Below, piece after piece: positions 951-8,139 of a stretch of DNA of 8,306 nucleotides. The DNA is from Planctomycetota bacterium (lineage in GTDB: Bacteria > Planctomycetota > MHYJ01 > JACPRB01), in contig JACQFK010000349.1 in NCBI GenBank assembly GCA_016200125.1, positions 1 to 8,306 of the forward strand. The letters run 5' to 3'. Within the stretch, counting starts at the first letter, position 1; each line of letters opens with the position of its first letter. The position numbers and the translations under genes are program-made. A model generated the notes under the pieces. It did no database searches, was not told where the DNA came from, and worked only from the letters and a program-made list of their open reading frames with translations.

Positions 951-1853
951 ATGATCGAACGAATTGTGGTGCCGCTGGACGGATCGCTGACGGCCGAAGC
1001 CATCCTGCCCCAGGTCCGCCGCGTCCTGTACCGGAACGACTCCGAGATCATCCTGGTCCGCGCCGTGGTCCCGCCGCCGGTGGAGCAGTCGGCGATGATC
1101 GCCGAGGCGGAGTTGGGAGCGGCCCGCGAGTACCTCGTGGGCCAGCTCGAACGGCTCGAGAAGTCGGGCGTCCGCGTGAAGCAGGTCGCCCGGATCGGCT
1201 CCCCCGTGGGCGTGATCCTGGACGTCGTGGAGGAGCAGAAGGCGACCCTGATCGCCCTGGCCACCCACGGCTCCACAGGGCTCAAGCGGCTCCTCTTCGG
1301 CAGCGTCGCGGAAGGCGTGCTGCGCAAGAGCCCGGTCCCGGTCCTCCTGCTGCGCCCCTTCTGGTCCTACGAGCTGGCGCCGACCGGCCGGCCGGAGCAG
1401 CGCCCCCTTCGGAACATCCTGCTCCCGGTGGACGGCAGCGACATCGCGCTCCAGGGCCTCTCGGGCCTCGTCGAGGTCGCCGATCTCTTCGAATCGCGCA
1501 TCGTGCTGCTCCGCGTGCTCGAGGACAAGAAGAAGAAGCCCGTCACGTCGGACGACAAGGCCGAGGCGGCGAAGCAGCTGGGCGCGATCGCGAAATCGAT
1601 CGAGAAGAAGGGCGTGGAGACGCTCAGCCTCGTGGAGAAGGGCGATCCCGTCAAGCAGATCCTCGACGCGGTCCGCTTCCATGAGATCGACCTGGTCGCC
1701 ATGACCACACACGGCCGCTCGGGCCTCTCCCGGGCCGTGACCGGCAGCGTGACCGAAGAGGTGCTGCGGAAGGCGACGGTGCCGCTCCTCGTGACGCGCA
1801 CGACGGCGCCGGCGAAGGCGGCCAGGCTTCCGGCGGCGAAGGTCCGGAAGTAG
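951..1853 (+). CDS. Tandem-domain universal stress protein (UspA family), both ATP sites intact
   Basis: A 300-residue cytoplasmic protein made of two Usp domains (about 1-137 and 153-283). Each domain opens with the beta-1 nucleotide-binding Asp (VPLDGS at 7-12; LPVDGS at 158-163). Each has the phosphate-binding loop in its ATP-binding form: THG-x9-GS at 105-118 and again at 253-266. Usp proteins of this type bind ATP and support survival under starvation, oxidative stress or low oxygen; the exact role here is not readable from sequence. The start is fixed by AAGGAGG (938-944), 6 nt before the ATG. The gene lies 14 bp behind the sigma-54 activator, with no promoter seen between them, so it is probably in the same operon. 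An Ala/Pro/Lys/Arg-rich tail (about 284-300) follows the second domain and is unusual for the fold. The final codons form one arm of the hairpin shared with the convergent gene. Confidence 0.95.
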   Translation: MIERIVVPLDGSLTAEAILPQVRRVLYRNDSEIILVRAVVPPPVEQSAMIAEAELGAAREYLVGQLERLEKSGVRVKQVARIGSPVGVILDVVEEQKATLIALATHGSTGLKRLLFGSVAEGVLRKSPVPVLLLRPFWSYELAPTGRPEQRPLRNILLPVDGSDIALQGLSGLVEVADLFESRIVLLRVLEDKKKKPVTSDDKAEAAKQLGAIAKSIEKKGVETLSLVEKGDPVKQILDAVRFHEIDLVAMTTHGRSGLSRAVTGSVTEEVLRKATVPLLVTRTTAPAKAARLPAAKVRK

Positions 1854-1869
1854 CCTCCCGGCTACTTCC
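1846..1869. terminator. Perfect 10-bp hairpin shared by two convergent genes, containing both stop codons
   Basis: GGAAGTAGCC (1846-1855), loop TCCC, then GGCTACTTCC (1860-1869): a perfect 10-bp inverted repeat. The left arm holds the TAG of the plus-strand Usp (1851-1853). The right arm holds the TAG of the minus-strand cytochrome-like gene (1862-1864 read in reverse). No T-run follows on either side, so it is not a classical intrinsic terminator. It may act as a bidirectional 3'-end or RNA-stability hairpin. The repeat is seen directly; its function is inferred. Confidence 0.6.
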
Positions 1870-3166
1870 AGGCCGCCGCGAACATCGGCAGGGTTTCGAT
1901 CGCGATCTCCCGCATCGCCCGGCGATCCTCGGGAGTCAGGTGGGAGAATTCCGGACGCGCGTCGCGGCCCCAGAGGATTTCCTTGAGGCGGCCGGCCACG
2001 CAGTCCCGCGCCTCGGGAGGCAGGCCCGCGAAGGGCTTCGAGTAGATCAGGTAGCTCAGCGGGACCTTGAACATCCGTTTCGTCAGATCGAACTGGCGCA
2101 GCGAGCGGCCCTGGCGGTCGAAGGGGCCCCGTTTCTCGAAGTCCGCGGCGAAGGTCGAGGTCCCCGTCACGCGTCCCGTGAGGGGCGCCTCGCCGGAGTA
2201 GACCAGCGCCTCCACCAGCGGCTCGCAGGCGTAGCCGATCCTCCGCCGGGAGCCCTCGGTGAGCGGGCGCAGCGGCGCGCCCAGCGTGCGGTTGATCTCG
2301 TCGCTCTGCGCGACCGCGACCCGGGTCTCGTGGTTGGCCCGCGTGATGAGGTTGTGGACGCTGGTCTGGTACTCGAGGACCATGAGCGCCACGATGTCGC
2401 TCGTTTCCGCGGGATAGGCATCGAGCTCGAGGCGCCGGGCCAGGTCCGTCAGGTTCGCGCCCCGGTCGCGCAGCGGCTTCAGGTCGGGATTCGGATCGTC
2501 GGGGAAGAAGGCGTTGCCCAGGTGCCTCATCTCGCCGTGGGTGCCGGTCACGTACCATCCGCCCCAGCGCTCCTCCAGCGGACTCCGGTAGCTGGTGCGG
2601 AAGCCGCCCAGGTTGAAGCGGGGCATGCCGTCGGCGCCCGGGAAGACGGAGCGCACCGTCACGCCGGGCACGCCGAGCGTGAGGCCGCTGCTGTCGTGGC
2701 ACTGGAGGCAGTTGTCGGTCTGGCGCTGGAAGCGCGGGGGCCTCGCGCCGTCCTGGGGCACGGTGTAGAAGATCGATCCGAGCTGCGGATCCTGCGAGGC
2801 GATCTCCAGCACCTCGCCGCCCTGGACGAAGCCGACATAGACGTCGTCGTTGAAGAAGAGCGCCCGGGGAGAGCGGGGATTGATCCACTGCCGCTGGAAG
2901 CTGGTCTTGCTGAAAACGAGGGACTGGGAGGAGACCGGGATGTCCAGCTCCTTCAGCAGCTCCCTGAGGAAACCCTGCGCGCGCTCGTACTCCAGCTTCG
3001 CGCGGCCCGCCGCCAGGCGCGCCTCCAGATCGGCGATGGGATCGGCCGGCCTGGACCGGCTGTAGTTGATCGGGGATGAGTCGTAGGCGGCCTGCTGGAA
3101 GGAGCCCAGGGCCAGCATCGGGGAAAGGACCAGGAGGAGCGGAAGAATCCGCGCCGACTGTGGCAT
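1862..3166 (-). CDS. Exported single-CxxCH protein, putative c-type cytochrome of unknown function
   Basis: A 434-residue protein with a likely signal peptide (n-region with Arg6, hydrophobic core about 7-20, possible cleavage near ALG-S at 19-22), so it should act outside the cytoplasmic membrane. One haem-attachment motif, CLQCH, lies at 153-157. Around it is a conserved-looking block: ALFFNDDVYVGFV (102-114), VPGVTVRSVFP (166-176), and GGWYVTGTHGEMRHLGN (202-218), whose His and Met residues could supply a distal haem ligand. I recognise this pattern from hypothetical 'cytochrome c domain' proteins of Acidobacteriota and Planctomycetota, but know no assigned reaction. The start is the ATG at 3166, not the longer frame beginning at 3223, because GGAGG (3173-3177) lies 6 nt upstream and the signal peptide then starts at residue 1. 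It lies 60 bp downstream of the CoA-transferase fusion on the same strand. It also has its own sigma-54-type promoter at 3219-3234. Confidence 0.85.
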   Translation of the reverse strand: MPQSARILPLLLVLSPMLALGSFQQAAYDSSPINYSRSRPADPIADLEARLAAGRAKLEYERAQGFLRELLKELDIPVSSQSLVFSKTSFQRQWINPRSPRALFFNDDVYVGFVQGGEVLEIASQDPQLGSIFYTVPQDGARPPRFQRQTDNCLQCHDSSGLTLGVPGVTVRSVFPGADGMPRFNLGGFRTSYRSPLEERWGGWYVTGTHGEMRHLGNAFFPDDPNPDLKPLRDRGANLTDLARRLELDAYPAETSDIVALMVLEYQTSVHNLITRANHETRVAVAQSDEINRTLGAPLRPLTEGSRRRIGYACEPLVEALVYSGEAPLTGRVTGTSTFAADFEKRGPFDRQGRSLRQFDLTKRMFKVPLSYLIYSKPFAGLPPEARDCVAGRLKEILWGRDARPEFSHLTPEDRRAMREIAIETLPMFAAAWK

Positions 3167-3172
3167 TCGCCG

Positions 3173-3177
3173 CCTCC
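3173..3177 (-). promoter_or_regulatory. Ribosome binding site fixing the cytochrome-like gene start
   Basis: GGAGG on the minus strand, 6 nt before the ATG at 3166. It selects this start over an in-frame ATG at 3223, which would put 19 charged and polar residues ahead of the signal peptide. Confidence 0.8.
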
Positions 3178-3218
3178 GATCGACCTGAAACCGGGAATAC
3201 GAATCAGAGGGGGAGGAT

Positions 3219-3234
3219 CGCAAGATTTATGCCA
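3219..3234 (-). promoter_or_regulatory. Sigma-54-type promoter for the cytochrome-like gene
   Basis: Minus-strand sequence TGGCATAAATCTTGCG matches TGGCACG-N4-TTGCW at 9 of 12 defined positions, with the invariant GG and GC exactly 10 bases apart. The predicted transcription start is near 3208, giving a leader of about 42 nt that includes the GGAGG. The site overlaps the stop codon of the upstream CoA-transferase fusion (3227-3229), so the cytochrome-like gene could be transcribed alone as well as by read-through. Any activator site would have to lie inside the upstream coding sequence. Confidence 0.65.
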
Positions 3235-5110
3235 GAGTTTGGGTCTTGCCCCCCGTTTCGGGGAAGCGGATCGTGACCGTGTAGATCCCCTCCTCGAGGG
3301 TGGACACGATCGGGAAGCCGCTGCGGTGGAACAGGTTGAGCATCCGGACGTTGCTGGAGCGGACATAGCCGACGAAGCCGTGGATCCCCCGGGGACGGGC
3401 GATGTCGATGAGACGCTGGAGCAGCCAGGTCCCGATGCCCCGGCACTGCAGGTCGTCGTGGATGGTGAAGGCCACCTCCGCCAGGCCCGTCGCAGGGTCC
3501 AGGACGTAGCGGCCGACGGCCGCCATCTTCTCGGTCTCGCCCTCCCGCGTGAAGCCCACGATCGCCATCTGACGGTCGTAGTCGAGCGTGCAGAGCTGCT
3601 GGATCTGCTGGGGCGTGAGCGACTTGAGCGGCGCGTGATAGCGCTGGTAGACGGTCTCCGCCGAATGGGAGTAGAAGAACTCCTTCAGGAGCCGCTCGTC
3701 GGAGGGGCGGATGGGACGGAAGCGGATCTCGAGCCCCTTGAAGCGCCCCATCGACTCCAGCTCGGCGGGATAGGGCTTGCCCCCGCGGGGCCAGGGGATC
3801 TGGTCGACGGTCACGAAGTGCCGCTGCTTCGCCGCCGCGAGGAGCTCCTCCTGGAACTTCGGGTGGGCGACGCTGATGAGGGCCAGCGTCCGCTCGCGCA
3901 CCGTCCGCCCCTTGAGCTCGGCGGCCCCGAACTCGGTGACGACGGTGTGGACGTCCCCGCGCGTCGTCACCACGCCGGCGCCCTCGGTCAGGACCGGAAC
4001 GATGCGGGACAGTGTGCCGTCCTTCGCGGTCGAGGGCAGAGCGAGGATCGAGCGGCCCTCCTTCGAGCGGGCGGCGCCGCGGATGAAGTCCACCTGTCCG
4101 CCGATGCCGCTGTAGAAGCGCGAGCCGATGGAGTCGGCGCAGACCTGGCCGGTGAGATCGACCTGCAGGGCCGAGTTGATGGAGATCATCCGGTCGTTCC
4201 GCGCGATCACGAAGGGATCGTTGACGTATTCCGTCGGGAGAAACTCGAAGAAGGGGTTGTCGTTCACGAAGTCGTAGAGCCGGCGCGAGCCCATGCAGAA
4301 CGACGTCACCGCCTTTCCGGCGTGGAGCGTCTTCCGGCGGCAGTTGATCGCCCCCGATTCGATCAGGTCGATCACGCCGTCGGAGATCATCTCGCTGTGC
4401 AGGCCCAGGTCCGACTTGCCCCCGAGCGAGGCGAGCACCGCGTTGGGGATCTCTCCGATGCCGAGCTGGAGCGTCGCCCCGTTCGGGACGAGGTCGGCGC
4501 AGAACTTCCCGATGCGGGCGCTCGCCTCGTCGCCTCGGGCGACGGGGATCTCCAGGATCGGCTCGGGGTTCTCGACGAAGAAATCGATGTCGTCCACGTG
4601 CAGGAAGCCCGCCCCGTGGGTCCGCGGCATGGTCGGATTCACCTCGGCGATCACCACCTCCGCCGCCTCCACCGCGCTCTTGACGACGTCCACGGAGACG
4701 CCGAGGGAGCAGAATCCGTGGGCGTCCGGCGGCGTGGTGGAGATGAGGGCGGTGTCCAGCGGGAGACGCCGCGAACGGAACAGGGCGGGGATCTCGGAGA
4801 GGAAGACGGGCGTGTAGTCGGCCTGTCCCGACGCCACCGCCTCGCGCACGTTCGACCCGATGAAGAAGGCGTTGTGGCGGAAGCGGCCGCCCTGCGCCGC
4901 GCGGGCGTAAGGAGCCTGCCCGATCGTCATGATGTGGAGCACCTCGACGTCCGCCAGGTCGTCGCGGTCCGCGAGGGCCGAGACCAGCAGCACCGGCTCC
5001 GCGCAGCCGGAGCCGACGAAGACCCGCGATCCGCGGCGGACGCCGGCGAGGGCGTTGCGGGCTTCCACGGTCCGGAGCTTGACGCGGTCCTTCCACGAGG
5101 GATTCGTCAT
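3227..5110 (-). CDS. Acetyl-CoA hydrolase/CoA-transferase family protein fused to a C-terminal GNAT acetyltransferase
   Basis: A 627-residue cytoplasmic fusion. Residues about 1-450 are a class I CoA-transferase of the acetyl-CoA hydrolase / 4-hydroxybutyrate CoA-transferase type. Visible motifs are LQLGIGEIPNAV (214-225), LHSEM with the probable catalytic Glu240 (the family forms a glutamyl-CoA thioester here), YSGIGGQVDF (333-342) and VTEFGAAELKGRT (391-403). Residues about 460-617 are a GNAT domain with the acetyl-CoA pyrophosphate loop QCRGIG (555-560) and a typical SSNVRMLNLFHRSGF helix (585-599). The first domain would move CoA between acyl groups or hydrolyse acyl-CoA; the exact substrate is unclear. 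The second would acetylate an amine, perhaps protein lysines. The only good start is the ATG at 5110, and it has no recognisable Shine-Dalgarno sequence. The candidate sigma-54 promoter at 5126-5141 would give a leader of only about 5 nt. It is divergent from a Usp/CBS operon. Confidence 0.93.
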   Translation of the reverse strand: MTNPSWKDRVKLRTVEARNALAGVRRGSRVFVGSGCAEPVLLVSALADRDDLADVEVLHIMTIGQAPYARAAQGGRFRHNAFFIGSNVREAVASGQADYTPVFLSEIPALFRSRRLPLDTALISTTPPDAHGFCSLGVSVDVVKSAVEAAEVVIAEVNPTMPRTHGAGFLHVDDIDFFVENPEPILEIPVARGDEASARIGKFCADLVPNGATLQLGIGEIPNAVLASLGGKSDLGLHSEMISDGVIDLIESGAINCRRKTLHAGKAVTSFCMGSRRLYDFVNDNPFFEFLPTEYVNDPFVIARNDRMISINSALQVDLTGQVCADSIGSRFYSGIGGQVDFIRGAARSKEGRSILALPSTAKDGTLSRIVPVLTEGAGVVTTRGDVHTVVTEFGAAELKGRTVRERTLALISVAHPKFQEELLAAAKQRHFVTVDQIPWPRGGKPYPAELESMGRFKGLEIRFRPIRPSDERLLKEFFYSHSAETVYQRYHAPLKSLTPQQIQQLCTLDYDRQMAIVGFTREGETEKMAAVGRYVLDPATGLAEVAFTIHDDLQCRGIGTWLLQRLIDIARPRGIHGFVGYVRSSNVRMLNLFHRSGFPIVSTLEEGIYTVTIRFPETGGKTQTLA

Positions 5111-5125
5111 CCGGGATGAGGATGA

Positions 5126-5141
5126 AGCAACCCGGGGGCCG
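5126..5141 (-). promoter_or_regulatory. Candidate sigma-54-type promoter for the CoA-transferase/GNAT gene
   Basis: Minus-strand sequence CGGCCCCCGGGTTGCT has GG-N10-GC with TTGCT and matches 9 of 12 consensus positions. The predicted start near 5115 leaves only about 5 nt before the ATG at 5110, so the mRNA would be almost leaderless. That agrees with the missing Shine-Dalgarno sequence, but it also makes this the weakest of the five sites. The upstream half is a C/G run that could match by chance. Confidence 0.4.
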
Positions 5142-5198
5142 CGGTCAAGCCTTAATGCGAAGCGCGAAGGACTCCGGGCAAGCGGGGACTATTCCGCG

Positions 5199-5236
5199 CC
5201 GGGGGCGGGAAGGGGAGCCCTTCCCCCCGGGGGCGG
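5199..5236 (+). repeat. Direct repeat CCGGGGGCGG flanking a perfect hairpin in the divergent spacer
   Basis: CCGGGGGCGG occurs at 5199-5208 and 5227-5236. Overlapping and between them is a perfect inverted repeat, GGGAAGGG (5207-5214), loop GAG, CCCTTCCC (5218-5225). The block lies just upstream of the sigma-54-type promoter at 5240, at about -67 to -30 from its predicted start. It could bind a regulator or simply be GC-rich simple sequence. Confidence 0.45.
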
Positions 5237-5239
5237 AAA

Positions 5240-5255
5240 GGGCAAGCCGTTTGCT
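5240..5255 (+). promoter_or_regulatory. Sigma-54-type promoter for the Usp/CBS operon
   Basis: GGGCAAGCCGTTTGCT matches TGGCACG-N4-TTGCW at 10 of 12 positions, with GG (5241-5242) and GC (5253-5254) exactly 10 bases apart. The predicted start near 5266 sits immediately before the GGAGG at 5267-5271, so the leader would be about 12 nt. It shares the string GCCG-(T/A)-TTGCTC with the site at 7232-7247, which precedes another Usp gene. Confidence 0.6.
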
Positions 5256-5277
5256 CCTTCCGCTGCGGAGGCCTTCG

Positions 5278-6168
5278 ATGAACAGATCTATTCTGGTCCC
5301 CCTGGACGGACTGGCGGAGTCCGAGGAGATTCTCGCGGAGGTCCGGCGCTTCGCCGATCCGCAGGATGAGATCCATCTCCTGCACGTCGTTCCGCCGCTG
5401 AACGCCCCGGTCGGACTGGAGCCGACTCACGTGATCGGGCTCTACGACCAGGCGTCGGCCTTCCTGGCGGACGTCCGGGCCCGCCGGCTGCCGGGTCGCC
5501 GGGGACTGGATCTGGTCCGCGCGGGCAAGCCCGCGGAGGGCATTCTCGGCGAGGCCCTGGAACGGAACATCCACCTGATCGCCATGGCCACCCACGGCCG
5601 GGGCGCCTTCAACCGCCTCCTCCTCGGCAGCGTGGCGTCGGAGGTCGTCCGGAAGACCCAGCTTCCCGTGCTGCTGACCCGCCCGGGGCTGATCCGGAGC
5701 TCGAAGCCGATCGAGCGGATTCTCGTCACCGTGGAGGGGCGCGAGACTCCCAAGGAGCTGCTCGACACGGTCAAATCGCTGGCCGCCGGCACCAAGATCG
5801 AGATCATCCTGTTCCATGCGATTTCGCCGGTGACGGATCCGGCGCCCGTCTGGGCTCCGTCGATGAACCTCACGTCGCTTCCCGCACCGGAGCGTCGCCT
5901 CCAGGAGCTCGCGGACCTCCTCGAGGAGGAGGGATACGTCGCCTGGCCGGTGGTGTCCGTGGGGTCGCCGGCGGAGGAGATCCTGGCCCAGGGGGCCCGG
6001 CTCGACGTGGACCTGATCGCTTTGGCGACCCACGCCCGGAGCGGCGTGGAGCGCCTGCTGGAAGGCAGCGTCGCCGAGGCCGTGCTCCGCCGTTCTCCGG
6101 TGCCCGTCCTGCTCCAGAAGCCCCTCGTCATTCCGCACCCCGTTCTGCAGGGGAAATCCCATGAGTAA
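5278..6168 (+). CDS. Tandem-domain universal stress protein with a degenerate second ATP site
   Basis: A 296-residue cytoplasmic protein with two Usp domains (about 1-136 and 145-283). The first keeps the ATP-binding signature: VPLDG (7-11) and THG-x9-GS (105-118). The second is altered at the matching places: the beta-1 Asp is Glu (VTVEG, Glu153) and the loop glycine is Ala (THA-x9-GS, Ala253 at 251-264). The C-terminal half may therefore bind nucleotide poorly or serve as a dimer partner. The start is set by GGAGG (5267-5271), 6 nt before the ATG. The frame remains open upstream, but that stretch lies in the promoter region. The last 8 nt overlap the CBS gene (ATGAGTAA), which implies translational coupling. 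It is transcribed away from the CoA-transferase fusion, from the sigma-54-type site at 5240-5255. Confidence 0.94.
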   Translation: MNRSILVPLDGLAESEEILAEVRRFADPQDEIHLLHVVPPLNAPVGLEPTHVIGLYDQASAFLADVRARRLPGRRGLDLVRAGKPAEGILGEALERNIHLIAMATHGRGAFNRLLLGSVASEVVRKTQLPVLLTRPGLIRSSKPIERILVTVEGRETPKELLDTVKSLAAGTKIEIILFHAISPVTDPAPVWAPSMNLTSLPAPERRLQELADLLEEEGYVAWPVVSVGSPAEEILAQGARLDVDLIALATHARSGVERLLEGSVAEAVLRRSPVPVLLQKPLVIPHPVLQGKSHE

Positions 6169-6658
6169 ACGCATCCTGGCCCGGGACCTCATGAGCCGCC
6201 CCGTGCGGCAGCTCACGACGGGAACGCCGCTCCGCGACGCCGCCGCCTTCCTGCTGCGGCACGGCATCAGCGGCGCCCCGGTCGTCGACGAGCACGGCAA
6301 GTGGGTGGGCGTCTTCACGCAGAGCGATCTGGCCCGCTACCTGGAAAGCCGGATTCTGCCCCCCTCTCCCGAGCGGACGCTGGAGTCGCGGGAGGAGGTC
6401 GCCGGCTTCGCGGCCCTCTCGCCGGACAAGATCGGCGAGGCGCCGGTCCGGCGCTTCATGACCCCCGGACTCTTCACCGTCTTTCCCGAGGCGACGCTCG
6501 AGGAGGTCGTGCGGACTCTGACCTCGTTCAAGGTCCACCGCGTGTTCGTGATCGACGAGCAGACCGCCGAGCTGCTCGGCGTGATCACGTCCATGGACCT
6601 GCTGAGGTTCATGGACGGGCGTCGCGCCCCTAAAAGCAGAAAGACCCAGCGGGTTTAG
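6161..6658 (+). CDS. Two-CBS-domain protein, likely adenine-nucleotide sensor
   Basis: A 165-residue soluble protein that is essentially a Bateman module: CBS1 about 6-62 and CBS2 about 96-152, joined by a charged linker. Each domain ends with the ribose-phosphate-binding pattern G-h-x-T-x-x-D (GVFTQSD at 50-56, GVITSMD at 140-146), and each begins with a typical Met-Ser/Thr-x-Pro segment (MSRP 11-14, MTPG 100-103). Free-standing CBS pairs commonly bind AMP, ATP, S-adenosylmethionine or NAD and regulate partners. No enzyme domain is attached, so the partner is unknown; the coupled Usp is the natural candidate. The gene starts inside the end of the Usp gene (8-nt overlap, ATGAGTAA) and should be translated with it. 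Its last codons form the left half of the downstream terminator hairpin, with the TAG in the loop. Confidence 0.93.
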   Translation: MSKRILARDLMSRPVRQLTTGTPLRDAAAFLLRHGISGAPVVDEHGKWVGVFTQSDLARYLESRILPPSPERTLESREEVAGFAALSPDKIGEAPVRRFMTPGLFTVFPEATLEEVVRTLTSFKVHRVFVIDEQTAELLGVITSMDLLRFMDGRRAPKSRKTQRV

Positions 6659-6672
6659 CCCCGCGGGTCTTT
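6640..6672. terminator. Bidirectional terminator hairpin overlapping the CBS gene stop codon
   Basis: AAAGACCC (6640-6647), bulged A, GCGGG (6649-6653), loop TTTAGC, CCCGC (6660-6664), GGGTCTTT (6665-6672): 13 base pairs with one bulge. The CBS stop codon (6656-6658) lies in the loop. The stem ends in A/T tracts, and on the minus strand it is followed by a T-rich stretch (TTTCTGCTTTTAG). It can therefore serve both the plus-strand CBS gene and the convergent membrane-protein gene. A small competing hairpin, CTTTCC-TCA-GGAAAG, occupies 6669-6683. Confidence 0.8.
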
Positions 6673-6706
6673 CCTCAGGAAAGAAAGGGGAAGGAAAGGT
6701 TTTGCC

Positions 6707-7015
6707 TCAGGTTTCGTGGCGGTCGGGATCCTGCTTCATCATCCAGTAGAATGCCCCCACCCAGCTGCTCATCAGCACCACGACCGTGGCGGTGAGCGGG
6801 ACCAGGCTCAGCACGTCCAGCGGCGAGCCCGCCAGGAACGCCGAGGAGAGCGCGGCGGCGCCGAAGGTCGCGCCGATCAGCCCGCTCAGGGCGCAGATCG
6901 CGATCGTCGAGCCCAGGCCGGGCGCGCCGTCCTTCGCCAGCGGGATCGCGTTTTCGGGGTGATTCGCCTGGTTCAGGGTCACCGGTTCCTGCGTCGGGAT
7001 CAGTCGGGCCACCAT
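6707..7015 (-). CDS. Small protein with two predicted membrane segments, function unknown
   Basis: A 102-residue protein I do not recognise. Residues 1-35 are polar and rich in Pro, Asn and Gly. They are followed by two hydrophobic stretches, about 36-62 (rich in small residues, with GLIGATFGAA resembling a glycine-zipper packing surface) and about 68-93 (ending in aromatic SSWVGAFYWMM). A short charged tail, KQDPDRHET, follows. This predicts a helical hairpin in the inner membrane. The start is the ATG at 7015, because AAAGGAGG (7021-7028) lies 5 nt upstream; the in-frame GTG at 7018 is too close to it. The gene is a single-gene unit that faces the CBS gene across a shared terminator and diverges from a Usp gene. 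Its promoter is the best sigma-54 match in the window, which supports it as a real, regulated gene. Confidence 0.8.
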   Translation of the reverse strand: MVARLIPTQEPVTLNQANHPENAIPLAKDGAPGLGSTIAICALSGLIGATFGAAALSSAFLAGSPLDVLSLVPLTATVVVLMSSWVGAFYWMMKQDPDRHET

Positions 7016-7020
7016 CACGT

Positions 7021-7028
7021 CCTCCTTT
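7021..7028 (-). promoter_or_regulatory. Strong ribosome binding site of the small membrane protein gene
   Basis: AAAGGAGG on the minus strand, 5 nt before the ATG at 7015 and only 2 nt before the alternative GTG at 7018. It therefore selects the ATG. Confidence 0.85.
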
Positions 7029-7035
7029 GGGTTTC

Positions 7036-7049
7036 AGTTCGTACGGACT
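7036..7049. repeat. Near-palindrome over the predicted start of the membrane-protein transcript
   Basis: AGTTCGTACGGACT is a 14-bp near-perfect palindrome centred on CGTACG, with one mismatched pair. It spans the predicted +1 (about 7047) of the sigma-54-type promoter at 7058-7073, where a repressor could block transcription. No known operator is recognised, and it may be coincidental. Confidence 0.3.
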
Positions 7050-7057
7050 CCTGGAAA

Positions 7058-7073
7058 AGCAAGACGCGTGCCA
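7058..7073 (-). promoter_or_regulatory. Consensus sigma-54 promoter for the small membrane protein
   Basis: Minus-strand sequence TGGCACGCGTCTTGCT matches all 12 defined positions of TGGCACG-N4-TTGCW, with GG and GC exactly 10 bases apart. The predicted start is near 7047, about 32 nt before the ATG, leaving room for the AAAGGAGG. This is the strongest promoter call in the window and requires an enhancer-binding activator such as the one encoded at the left end. Confidence 0.9.
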
Positions 7074-7140
7074 GCCGGCGGAGCGGCCGGAAGCGCCGCG
7101 GCGAAGGGGGGGAATTGCGGAGAATCCGACGTTCGGGGCT

Positions 7141-7167
7141 CGGAAATCCCCGCCGCGTGAATTTCCG
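7141..7167. promoter_or_regulatory. Inverted repeat, candidate activator-binding site shared by two divergent sigma-54 promoters
   Basis: CGGAAAT (7141-7147) and ATTTCCG (7161-7167) form a perfect 7-bp inverted repeat with a 13-bp spacer. A second, overlapping pair is TCCCCGCC (7147-7154) and GGCGGGGA (7172-7179). The centre (about 7154) lies about 104 bp upstream of the predicted plus-strand start (7258) and about 107 bp upstream of the minus-strand start (7047). Sigma-54 activators usually bind dyad sites about 80-150 bp upstream. The repeat is seen directly; its role is inferred. Confidence 0.45.
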
Positions 7168-7231
7168 CGCGGGCGGGGAATCGTCCCGGACGGGAGGGCG
7201 GATTCGGCCCCGGCCCCTAGGGGCTCCGGAG

Positions 7232-7247
7232 TGGAATGCCGATTGCT
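7232..7247 (+). promoter_or_regulatory. Sigma-54-type promoter for the Usp pair at 7279 and 8154
   Basis: TGGAATGCCGATTGCT matches TGGCACG-N4-TTGCW at 10 of 12 positions, with GG (7233-7234) and GC (7245-7246) exactly 10 bases apart. The predicted start near 7258 gives a leader of about 21 nt carrying the GGAGG at 7269-7273. Confidence 0.7.
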
Positions 7248-7278
7248 CTGTCCTCCGCAGAAGCAAACGGAGGGAACC

Positions 7279-8139
7279 ATGTTGAAGAAAATCCTGCTGG
7301 CGATGGATGGCTCGGAAAACGCCGAGCGCGCCCTGTGGTGGGTCATCCAATACGCGGGCCGCGAGAAGGCCCAGGTGGTGCTGTTCCGCGCCGTGGATAC
7401 GACGAACCTGGAACCCGAGTTCCTCTCCTCCCAGACGAAGGACGCCCTCAATTATCTCCAGCGGATGGAGACGGAGATCAACCAGGCGGGCATTCCGGCG
7501 AAGGTGATCGTGCGTCCGGGGAGGCCGGCCGAGATGATCGTGAAGGTGGCGATGGAAGAGCGGGCCGACCTCATCCTGATGACGACCCGCGGCGGCTCCA
7601 AGGTGAAGCGCTGGACGATCGGCGGCGTGACGGAGCAGGTCCTCCGCATGAGCCCGATCCCCGTGCTGCCGGTGCAGAGCCGGACGCGCCCCGCGAAGAA
7701 CGACCGCGTGCGCCGCATCATCATGCCGGTGGACGGCTCGAAGCTCGCCGAGGCCGCGATGGACTGGGCCAAGGGCCTCGCCCACCTGCTCAAGGCGCGC
7801 CTCGTCTTCCTGCACGTCTATCCCCACGGGCCCGGGGGCCTGGGCAGCAAGGCGGAGGAGAACTTCGACGCCCTGCGGAAGCGGATGGTGAGGCTCTGCC
7901 AGCTCCTGCGGAAGGAGGGAATCAAGGCCCGCTTCGCCGTGCGCACGGGCGACGCCGCCGACCGCATCCTCGCGTTCTCGGGCATGAACGATCTCATCCT
8001 GACGACCACGCACGGCGGGGGCGGCTTCAAGCGCTGGATCTTCGGCAGCGTGGCCGAGAAGCTCATCCACGAATCCCGGGTCCCGGTGCTGGTGTTCAAG
8101 GCGTTCTCCCAGATCAAAGGAAAGGCCCTGACGGCCTGA
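7279..8139 (+). CDS. Tandem-domain universal stress protein with an altered first ATP site
   Basis: A 286-residue cytoplasmic protein with two Usp domains (about 1-134 and 145-275). Both keep the beta-1 Asp (LAMDGS at 7-12, MPVDGS at 149-154). The first domain's nucleotide loop is changed: TRG-x9-GG (103-116) has Arg104 for the usual His and Gly116 for Ser/Thr. The second is canonical, THG-x9-GS (244-257), and continues into a basic aromatic KRWIF segment. The pattern is the reverse of the Usp at 5278, whose second domain is the degenerate one. The start is set by GGAGG (7269-7273), 5 nt before the ATG; the frame is open upstream, but only through the promoter. Another Usp starts 14 bp after its stop, so the two form an operon driven from 7232-7247. 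Confidence 0.94.
   Translation: MLKKILLAMDGSENAERALWWVIQYAGREKAQVVLFRAVDTTNLEPEFLSSQTKDALNYLQRMETEINQAGIPAKVIVRPGRPAEMIVKVAMEERADLILMTTRGGSKVKRWTIGGVTEQVLRMSPIPVLPVQSRTRPAKNDRVRRIIMPVDGSKLAEAAMDWAKGLAHLLKARLVFLHVYPHGPGGLGSKAEENFDALRKRMVRLCQLLRKEGIKARFAVRTGDAADRILAFSGMNDLILTTTHGGGGFKRWIFGSVAEKLIHESRVPVLVFKAFSQIKGKALTA

Follow-up and report, generated by a model that had tools for sequence, protein, structure and literature searches.

Positions 1 to 8,306 of contig JACQFK010000349.1 of a Planctomycetota bacterium (assembly GCA_016200125.1), a stretch of 8,306 nucleotides (nt), were analyzed and are called the window here. It contains the gene of an NtrC-type sigma-54 activator at its left end, three genes of tandem universal stress proteins (Usp1 to Usp3), and the genes of a two-CBS-domain protein, a protein carrying one CxxCH haem motif (the "cytochrome"), a CoA-transferase fused to a GNAT acetyltransferase, and an orphan protein of 103 amino acids (aa) (Table 1). 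Five predicted -24/-12 promoters are seen upstream of these genes, and two predicted enhancer dyads are placed between divergent pairs of them. The window is probably part of an enhancer-dependent sigma-54 regulon run by the NtrC-type activator via shared dyads; we put the probability at about 0.8. A sequence-only reading of this DNA had reported the five sites and had suggested a multi-operon sigma-54 regulon. That observation is real and largely as first read, with two of the five units less certain.

Table 1. Genes, predicted promoters, and predicted enhancer dyads in the window, in order of position.
Feature	Position	Strand	Basis
NtrC-type sigma-54 activator, AAA and Fis-type helix-turn-helix, C-terminal 311 aa	1..936	+	Pfam Sigma54_activat 4.8e-67, HTH_8 4.5e-13
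Usp1, tandem universal stress protein	951..1853	+	PF00582, two stretches
Single-CxxCH haem-motif protein ("cytochrome")	1862..3166	-	signal-like N-terminus; no Pfam family
Predicted -24/-12 promoter of the CxxCH protein	3219..3234	-	TGGCATAAATCTTGCG, score 16.0
Acetyl-CoA hydrolase/CoA-transferase fused to GNAT acetyltransferase	3227..5110	-	PF02550, PF13336, PF00583
Predicted -24/-12 promoter of the CoA-transferase	5126..5141	-	CGGCCCCCGGGTTGCT, score 16.0; among the weaker sites
Predicted enhancer dyad	5183..5198	.	score 12.1, ranking second among window positions; reached by 92/5000 spacer shuffles; 50.5 base pairs (bp) to each flanking -24 element
Predicted -24/-12 promoter of Usp2-CBS	5240..5255	+	GGGCAAGCCGTTTGCT, score 16.5
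Usp2, tandem universal stress protein	5278..6168	+	PF00582
Two-CBS-domain protein	6161..6658	+	PF00571, two stretches; start overlaps the end of Usp2
103-aa orphan protein, two hydrophobic segments	6707..7018	-	hydropathy
Perfect predicted -24/-12 promoter of the 103-aa membrane protein	7058..7073	-	TGGCACGCGTCTTGCT, score 18.5/18.5
Predicted enhancer dyad	7154..7169	.	score 17.3, best in the window; reached by 6/5000 spacer shuffles; 71.5 and 89.5 bp to the flanking -24 elements
Predicted -24/-12 promoter of Usp3	7232..7247	+	TGGAATGCCGATTGCT, score 16.0
Usp3, tandem universal stress protein	7279..8139	+	PF00582, 174 bits
Fourth Usp-like open reading frame	starts 8154, runs off the window		51-aa fragment, 20.5 bits, below the cut-off of 24

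Sigma-54 sites were scored by our own simple weighting of the consensus TGGCACG-N4-TTGCW, with GG and GC required and a maximum of 18.5. Exactly five sites in the window score 16 or more, all upstream of gene starts and directed at them. All show the GG-N10-GC core and TTGC at -12 that had been described for them. Their predicted transcription starts had been placed 5 to 42 nt before the gene starts, and the predicted leaders, worked out by hand with +1 set 12 nt past the -12 C, agree: 42, 5, 12, 29 (or 32), and 21 nt for the sites at 3219, 5126, 5240, 7058, and 7232, respectively. The corresponding predicted starts are 3208, 5115, 5266, 7047, and 7258. Five transcription units start inside the window and each has its own site, as first claimed; the unit of the activator and Usp1 starts outside.

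In the three promoter spacers, sites scoring 16 or more are seen five times where 0.03 are expected, and none of 2000 dinucleotide shuffles reaches five. For the whole window, the expectation is 0.64 (0/300 shuffles). The simpler pattern GGN8TTGC had been estimated to occur less than once by chance in the spacers; 0.40 are expected there and five are seen, a number that 0/2000 shuffles reach. Across the whole window, the pattern taken alone is no rarity: it has eight matches versus 4.09 expected, and 11/200 shuffles reach eight. The three further matches are inside genes, with scores of 12.5, 13.5, and 14.5. No sigma-70-like site was found in 3150-7300 with a simple consensus.

The sites were compared with those in 23 genomes of one related planctomycete class. 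The target set consists of 20 stretches around activator and Usp genes, where sites were counted within 120 nt upstream of genes that are first in their units, and the control set consists of 40 stretches from four of the 23 genomes; the gene calls are home-made. Sites scoring at least 15.5 precede 13/24 Usp genes, 5/7 CBS genes, 6/8 NtrC-type genes, and 19/129 other genes in the target stretches. The control stretches show them at 7/173 other genes and at 0/1 NtrC-type gene. Antisense sites at the same threshold are seen at 0/24 Usp, 1/7 CBS, 1/8 NtrC-type, and 4/129 other genes, and at 2/173 control genes. The sequence-only reading had proposed to check whether the sites are conserved in related genomes and whether, in the complete genome, they concentrate at usp, CBS, or CoA-transferase genes. 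In the relatives, sites concentrate at Usp and CBS genes, and the CoA-transferase site is not conserved.

The gene rpoN is present in 20/23 genomes of the class, including all nine with an orthologue of the activator; it was not found in G004, G009, and G012. A strict pattern, TGGCAYN5TTGCW, was searched for in one genome, G016, and gave 29 matches versus one for the reversed control. These matches precede three Usp genes, one at 33 nt and two beyond 300 nt. Because strict matches also precede genes of pilin-, DnaK-, FlgG-, and SSB-like proteins (judged by N-terminal sequence), sigma-54 in G016 is probably a broad regulator, with the Usp cluster as one branch among many targets. Three of the strict matches have no called gene downstream.

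The predicted enhancer dyad is a 16-bp sequence, TGCGgAAATTTcCGCA, obtained by motif learning on 22 upstream regions taken from relatives; the window was kept out of the training. An initial count of gapped palindromes had given only weak words, and motif learning was used instead. When each genome was left out in turn, 20/22 held-out regions score above the 95% level set by 298 control regions, and 15/22 score above the 99% level. The two regions below the 95% level are L148 337-536 and L149 4060-4259. Among promoters at the same loci that were unused in training, 15/21 have a dyad match scoring at least 10 at 30-130 bp. Such a match is seen at 3/300 control gene starts and at 1/61 sigma-54-like sites of the control contigs. 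Across the class, the strict 16-bp pattern occurs at 12 places in 10/23 genomes, seven of them at NtrC/Usp loci, a count that is partly circular, as the motif was learned at those loci. The reversed control occurs at five places (G004, G005, and G011), and these genomes all lack an orthologue above 70%.

The two best dyad matches of the whole window are each situated between the divergent predicted promoters of a spacer. Judged by sequence alone, four of the five promoters have an upstream activator-binding dyad, the one at 3219 being the exception. The third-best match, at 3138, was considered as the enhancer of the 3219 promoter and rejected: it is inside the gene, and since 6/46190 control positions reach a score of 9, about one such match is expected in the window.

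In the relatives, the distances from the dyad center to the -24 element cluster near 40, 50, 60, 70, and 90 bp. For 38 promoters, some of which share a dyad or are orthologous and so are not fully independent, a 10-bp period gives a phase coherence R of 0.62, and 0/500 random sets match it over all periods tried. Since the distance was unused in motif learning, the phasing is separate evidence for a dyad-bound protein contacting the polymerase. The four window distances deviate by no more than 2 bp from the mean phase seen in relatives, although they come from two dyads only.

Several facts weigh against a regulon run in this way. First Usp genes without a site at 15.5 make up 11/24 of those in relatives. 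The Usp excess also falls as the threshold rises: 9/24 versus 5/173 in controls at 16, 6/24 versus 5/173 at 16.5, and 2/24 versus 2/173 at 17. Three of the nine orthologue loci (L140, L141, and L145) show neither Usp nor CBS genes in the stretch read, and L147 shows CBS only and no Usp. The counts are not fully independent, as G002 and G020-G023 have much of the arrangement in common and divergent promoters share dyads. The control regions of the dyad test are 170 nt long, while the tested regions are 200 to 288 nt. Paired dyads 20-21 bp apart are seen at many promoters of relatives, but both window dyads lack a strong partner at that distance. The dyad at 5183 is only moderately significant, and the 200 bp upstream of the promoter at 3219 contain no enhancer match. 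The evidence on rpoN and on the partner kinase is from relatives, the analysis of the window's own genome having covered the window only.

It is also quite conceivable, though less likely than not, that only the 103-aa gene, Usp3, and Usp2-CBS are dependent on sigma-54, with the site at 3219, the site at 5126, or both being chance matches, and the cytochrome and the CoA-transferase using other promoters. This alternative overlaps the proposed regulon and concerns its extent. It draws on the lack of an enhancer at 3219, on the short 5-nt leader of the CoA-transferase, and on the lack of conservation of the site of that gene. The CoA-transferase is present in 9/23 genomes of the class, in seven of them at 66-74%, and a site scoring at least 15.5 within 120 nt of the called start is seen in 0/7 relatives. 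Outside these limits are a site of 14.5 at 36 nt in L097 and one of 16.0 at 144 nt in L093, and dyad scores at these genes are 9.5 at most. The activator and the CoA-transferase share a contig in two genomes only, about 10 kb apart in G023 and about 16 kb apart in G020; in the window the distance is about 2 kb. On the other hand, sites of 16 or more within 120 nt are rare upstream of control genes, the 5126 promoter shares the 5183 dyad at 50.5 bp, and the simple consensus gave no sigma-70-like site as a replacement. Control by sigma-54 and NtrC is a well-supported prediction for Usp2-CBS, Usp3, and the 103-aa membrane protein. It is a fair one for the CoA-transferase, because of the site score and the shared 5183 dyad, and a weak one for the cytochrome, because no enhancer match is present. 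The suggestion of a multi-operon sigma-54 regulon is supported for the Usp and CBS genes by sites, relatives, enhancer motif, and phasing, and is less certain for the other two units.

The regulon as proposed depends on the activator at the left end. Its open reading frame is cut by the window edge, and the N-terminal part is beyond that edge; the presence of a sigma-54 activator gene there, as first reported, is borne out by the profile matches. Orthologues at 71-75% identity are present in nine genomes, with called lengths of 457-463 aa. The one orthologue checked with Pfam at full length, in L143, is REC-AAA-Fis and contains a receiver domain. The protein is an AAA activator with a GAFTGA-type contact loop, as expected for sigma-54-dependent promoters, in the variant form GAFTDA; GAFTDA or GSFTDA, not GAFTGA, is seen in 12/12 aligned relatives (L139-L151). 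Usp1 follows after a gap of 14 nt and is probably co-transcribed with the activator. The three tandem Usp proteins match PF00582 with 160-174 bits (cut-off 24).

The C-terminal helix-turn-helix of the window activator is closely similar to that of its orthologues. Dyads precede the genes of orthologues and paralogues of the activator themselves (L142, L143, L144, L146, L147, and L150, all within the training regions). Because of these two facts, the left-end activator is likely to be the protein that binds the dyad. The sites could instead be real sigma-54 promoters while the dyad serves a different activator or a repressor, such as an FNR/NnrR-like or LuxR-type protein, and the NtrC gene is nearby by coincidence. 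NtrC-type paralogues in several relatives and the three orthologue loci lacking Usp and CBS genes would fit such an arrangement. It is unlikely, as the dyad precedes NtrC genes, is in helical phase with the -24 elements as activators would need, is often paired at 20-21 bp, and in its strict form is found mostly at NtrC/Usp loci. That GC-rich spacers yield TTGC and GG matches by chance and that no sigma-54 regulon exists is hardly credible and is rejected: GGN8TTGC is mildly enriched over the whole window, but the five high-scoring spacer sites against 0.03 expected, the same arrangement at Usp, CBS, and NtrC-type genes of relatives, and the excess of strict matches in G016 are not accounted for by chance.

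With the NtrC-type activator as the regulator, the following mechanism can be proposed. A two-component activator, whose gene stands beside that of Usp1 at the left end, would bind the 16-bp dyads. As each of the dyads at 5183 and 7154 is amid a divergent -24/-12 pair in a helical phase like that of the relatives, a single enhancer could act on both units of its pair. With an active partner kinase, the activator would open the sigma-54 promoters upstream of Usp2-CBS, Usp3, and the gene of the 103-aa membrane protein. It would probably also open the promoter of the CoA-transferase-GNAT gene and perhaps that of the CxxCH protein. The activator may also regulate its own gene.

The related loci give some hints about the signal. 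According to the profiles built here, a gene of a GAF-PAS histidine kinase comes just before that of the activator in L139, L140, L141, and L145, and a protoglobin protein is encoded in the activator locus at 4/9 orthologue loci (L142, L143, L144, and L146). Pfam checks find a GAF-PAS kinase in L139 and L144 and a protoglobin kinase in L143. Protoglobin is present in 9/23 genomes of the class. The protoglobin-histidine kinase gene L143:4898-6106 has the activator orthologue in its vicinity, a formate/nitrite transporter gene before it, and a strict dyad match just upstream (G023:C302:19858). Its product is a candidate for the oxygen sensor of the system. Formate/nitrite transporters are encoded at L142, L143, L146, and L147. 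Hemerythrin genes with sigma-54 sites, most of them with dyads, are seen at L139 and L149. Of the L139 hemerythrins, one is just under the Pfam cut-off (24.0 versus 25.3), and downstream of the other is a gene for cytochrome c. NorB-like and NnrS-like proteins are also encoded at L139. Based on the protoglobin and GAF-PAS kinases, the hemerythrins, and the NorB-like protein at some related loci, our best guess is that the signal could be low oxygen or nitric oxide. It can be speculated, tentatively, that the locus serves a gas-sensing dormancy program, in which a protoglobin or GAF-PAS kinase, NtrC, and the new enhancer act together and, in this lineage, single enhancers between divergent sigma-54 promoters co-induce Usp, the CoA-transferase-acetyltransferase, and the new small membrane protein. 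If so, the CoA-transferase-acetyltransferase could couple protein acetylation to acyl-CoA status.

Usp proteins occur widely, and in our view little is known of their control outside model bacteria. Mycobacterium has the DosR dormancy regulon, in which low oxygen acts through haem-sensor kinases and a LuxR-type regulator, without sigma-54, to induce Usp and CBS-type genes. The window resembles it in the Usp and CBS-type targets under the supposed low oxygen, and differs from it in the type of regulator and in the use of sigma-54. Sigma-54 control of Usp genes was called notable in the sequence-only reading. This is tempered by two papers, cited here, as are the others below, from excerpts. In PMC12316311, predicted sigma-54 promoters are enriched before UspA (COG0589) in Planctomycetia, and CBS (COG0517) and NtrC-type (COG2204) groups are also named for planctomycetes. 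In PMC11841059, the NtrC-type regulator NmpR of Myxococcus xanthus acts on a CBS gene, a USP, cbb3 oxidase, and hemN-hemerythrin via GCGCA-N5-TGCGC enhancers, and a hypoxia-induced dormancy regulon with USPs is mentioned. UspA is also named in the key of a figure on Desulfovibrio response-regulator targets (PMC3333781), and Nmp-kinase homologues are noted in Planctomycetes (PMC6211767). The excerpt of PMC12316311 gives statistics on COGs; the activator, the enhancer motif, and the anatomy of the locus are added here. Among the matches listed in open-licence literature (titles and abstract openings), no description of this enhancer or regulon in planctomycetes was found.

As far as the excerpt describes the Nmp system (NmpRSTU), it matches the window in part. 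Both have an NtrC-type response regulator, sigma-54 promoters (predicted ones in the window), and proposed autoregulation. In the window, the AAA and helix-turn-helix domains of such a regulator are seen, and the receiver is seen in the L143 orthologue only. In both, a USP and a CBS-domain protein are among the targets, proposed ones in the case of the window, and so is a hemerythrin, here at related loci. The protoglobin histidine kinase of Nmp has a counterpart in some relatives of the window and not in the window itself. The enhancers differ, TGCG-N8-CGCA being proposed here versus GCGCA-N5-TGCGC for NmpR. The NmpR enhancer itself was sought in the window with up to two mismatches and rejected; it has 11 matches versus 11.03 expected, none in the promoter spacers. 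The GAF-PAS kinase gene directly beside the regulator at four related loci, and several tandem Usp genes with a CoA-transferase-GNAT gene, are further differences from what is described for Nmp. An NmpS hybrid kinase and an NmpT double receiver were not seen among 30 proteins of related loci scanned with Pfam, a non-exhaustive set. The system appears to work like the NmpR regulon but is not classed as Nmp, because the NmpR enhancer sequence was not found. Judging from this partial match, the control of low-oxygen stress genes by sigma-54 may be a solution that recurs across phyla. An uncultured planctomycete class here gains a proposed regulator with its binding sequence, promoter geometry, and targets, and the signal and the regulon become directly testable.

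The 103-aa protein returned itself alone in a search of 5.8 billion proteins (16 candidates), and tblastn against the relatives' loci gave no relative (best E=1.1). Between the convergent CBS and 103-aa genes, a GC-rich inverted repeat at 6640-6675, seen by eye, resembles a terminator; the terminator scan listed none. The CxxCH protein, probably secreted, has no Pfam or NCBIfam match and no match in the 23-genome class. Its homologues are present in 52/392 genomes of the phylum at 38-51% identity, and a further search gave at least 120 homologues. It is possibly an undescribed phylum-wide family. The GNAT domain of the CoA-transferase fusion shows a weak likeness to mycobacterial Pat (75 bits versus a cut-off of 460). 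Relatives of the CoA-transferase at 49-73% are also filed under archaea and several phyla. Among the matches listed (at least 120), nine have an organism name: seven planctomycetes, one Binatia, and one Acidobacteria. Close relatives of the CoA-transferase from metagenomes show 84-89% identity.

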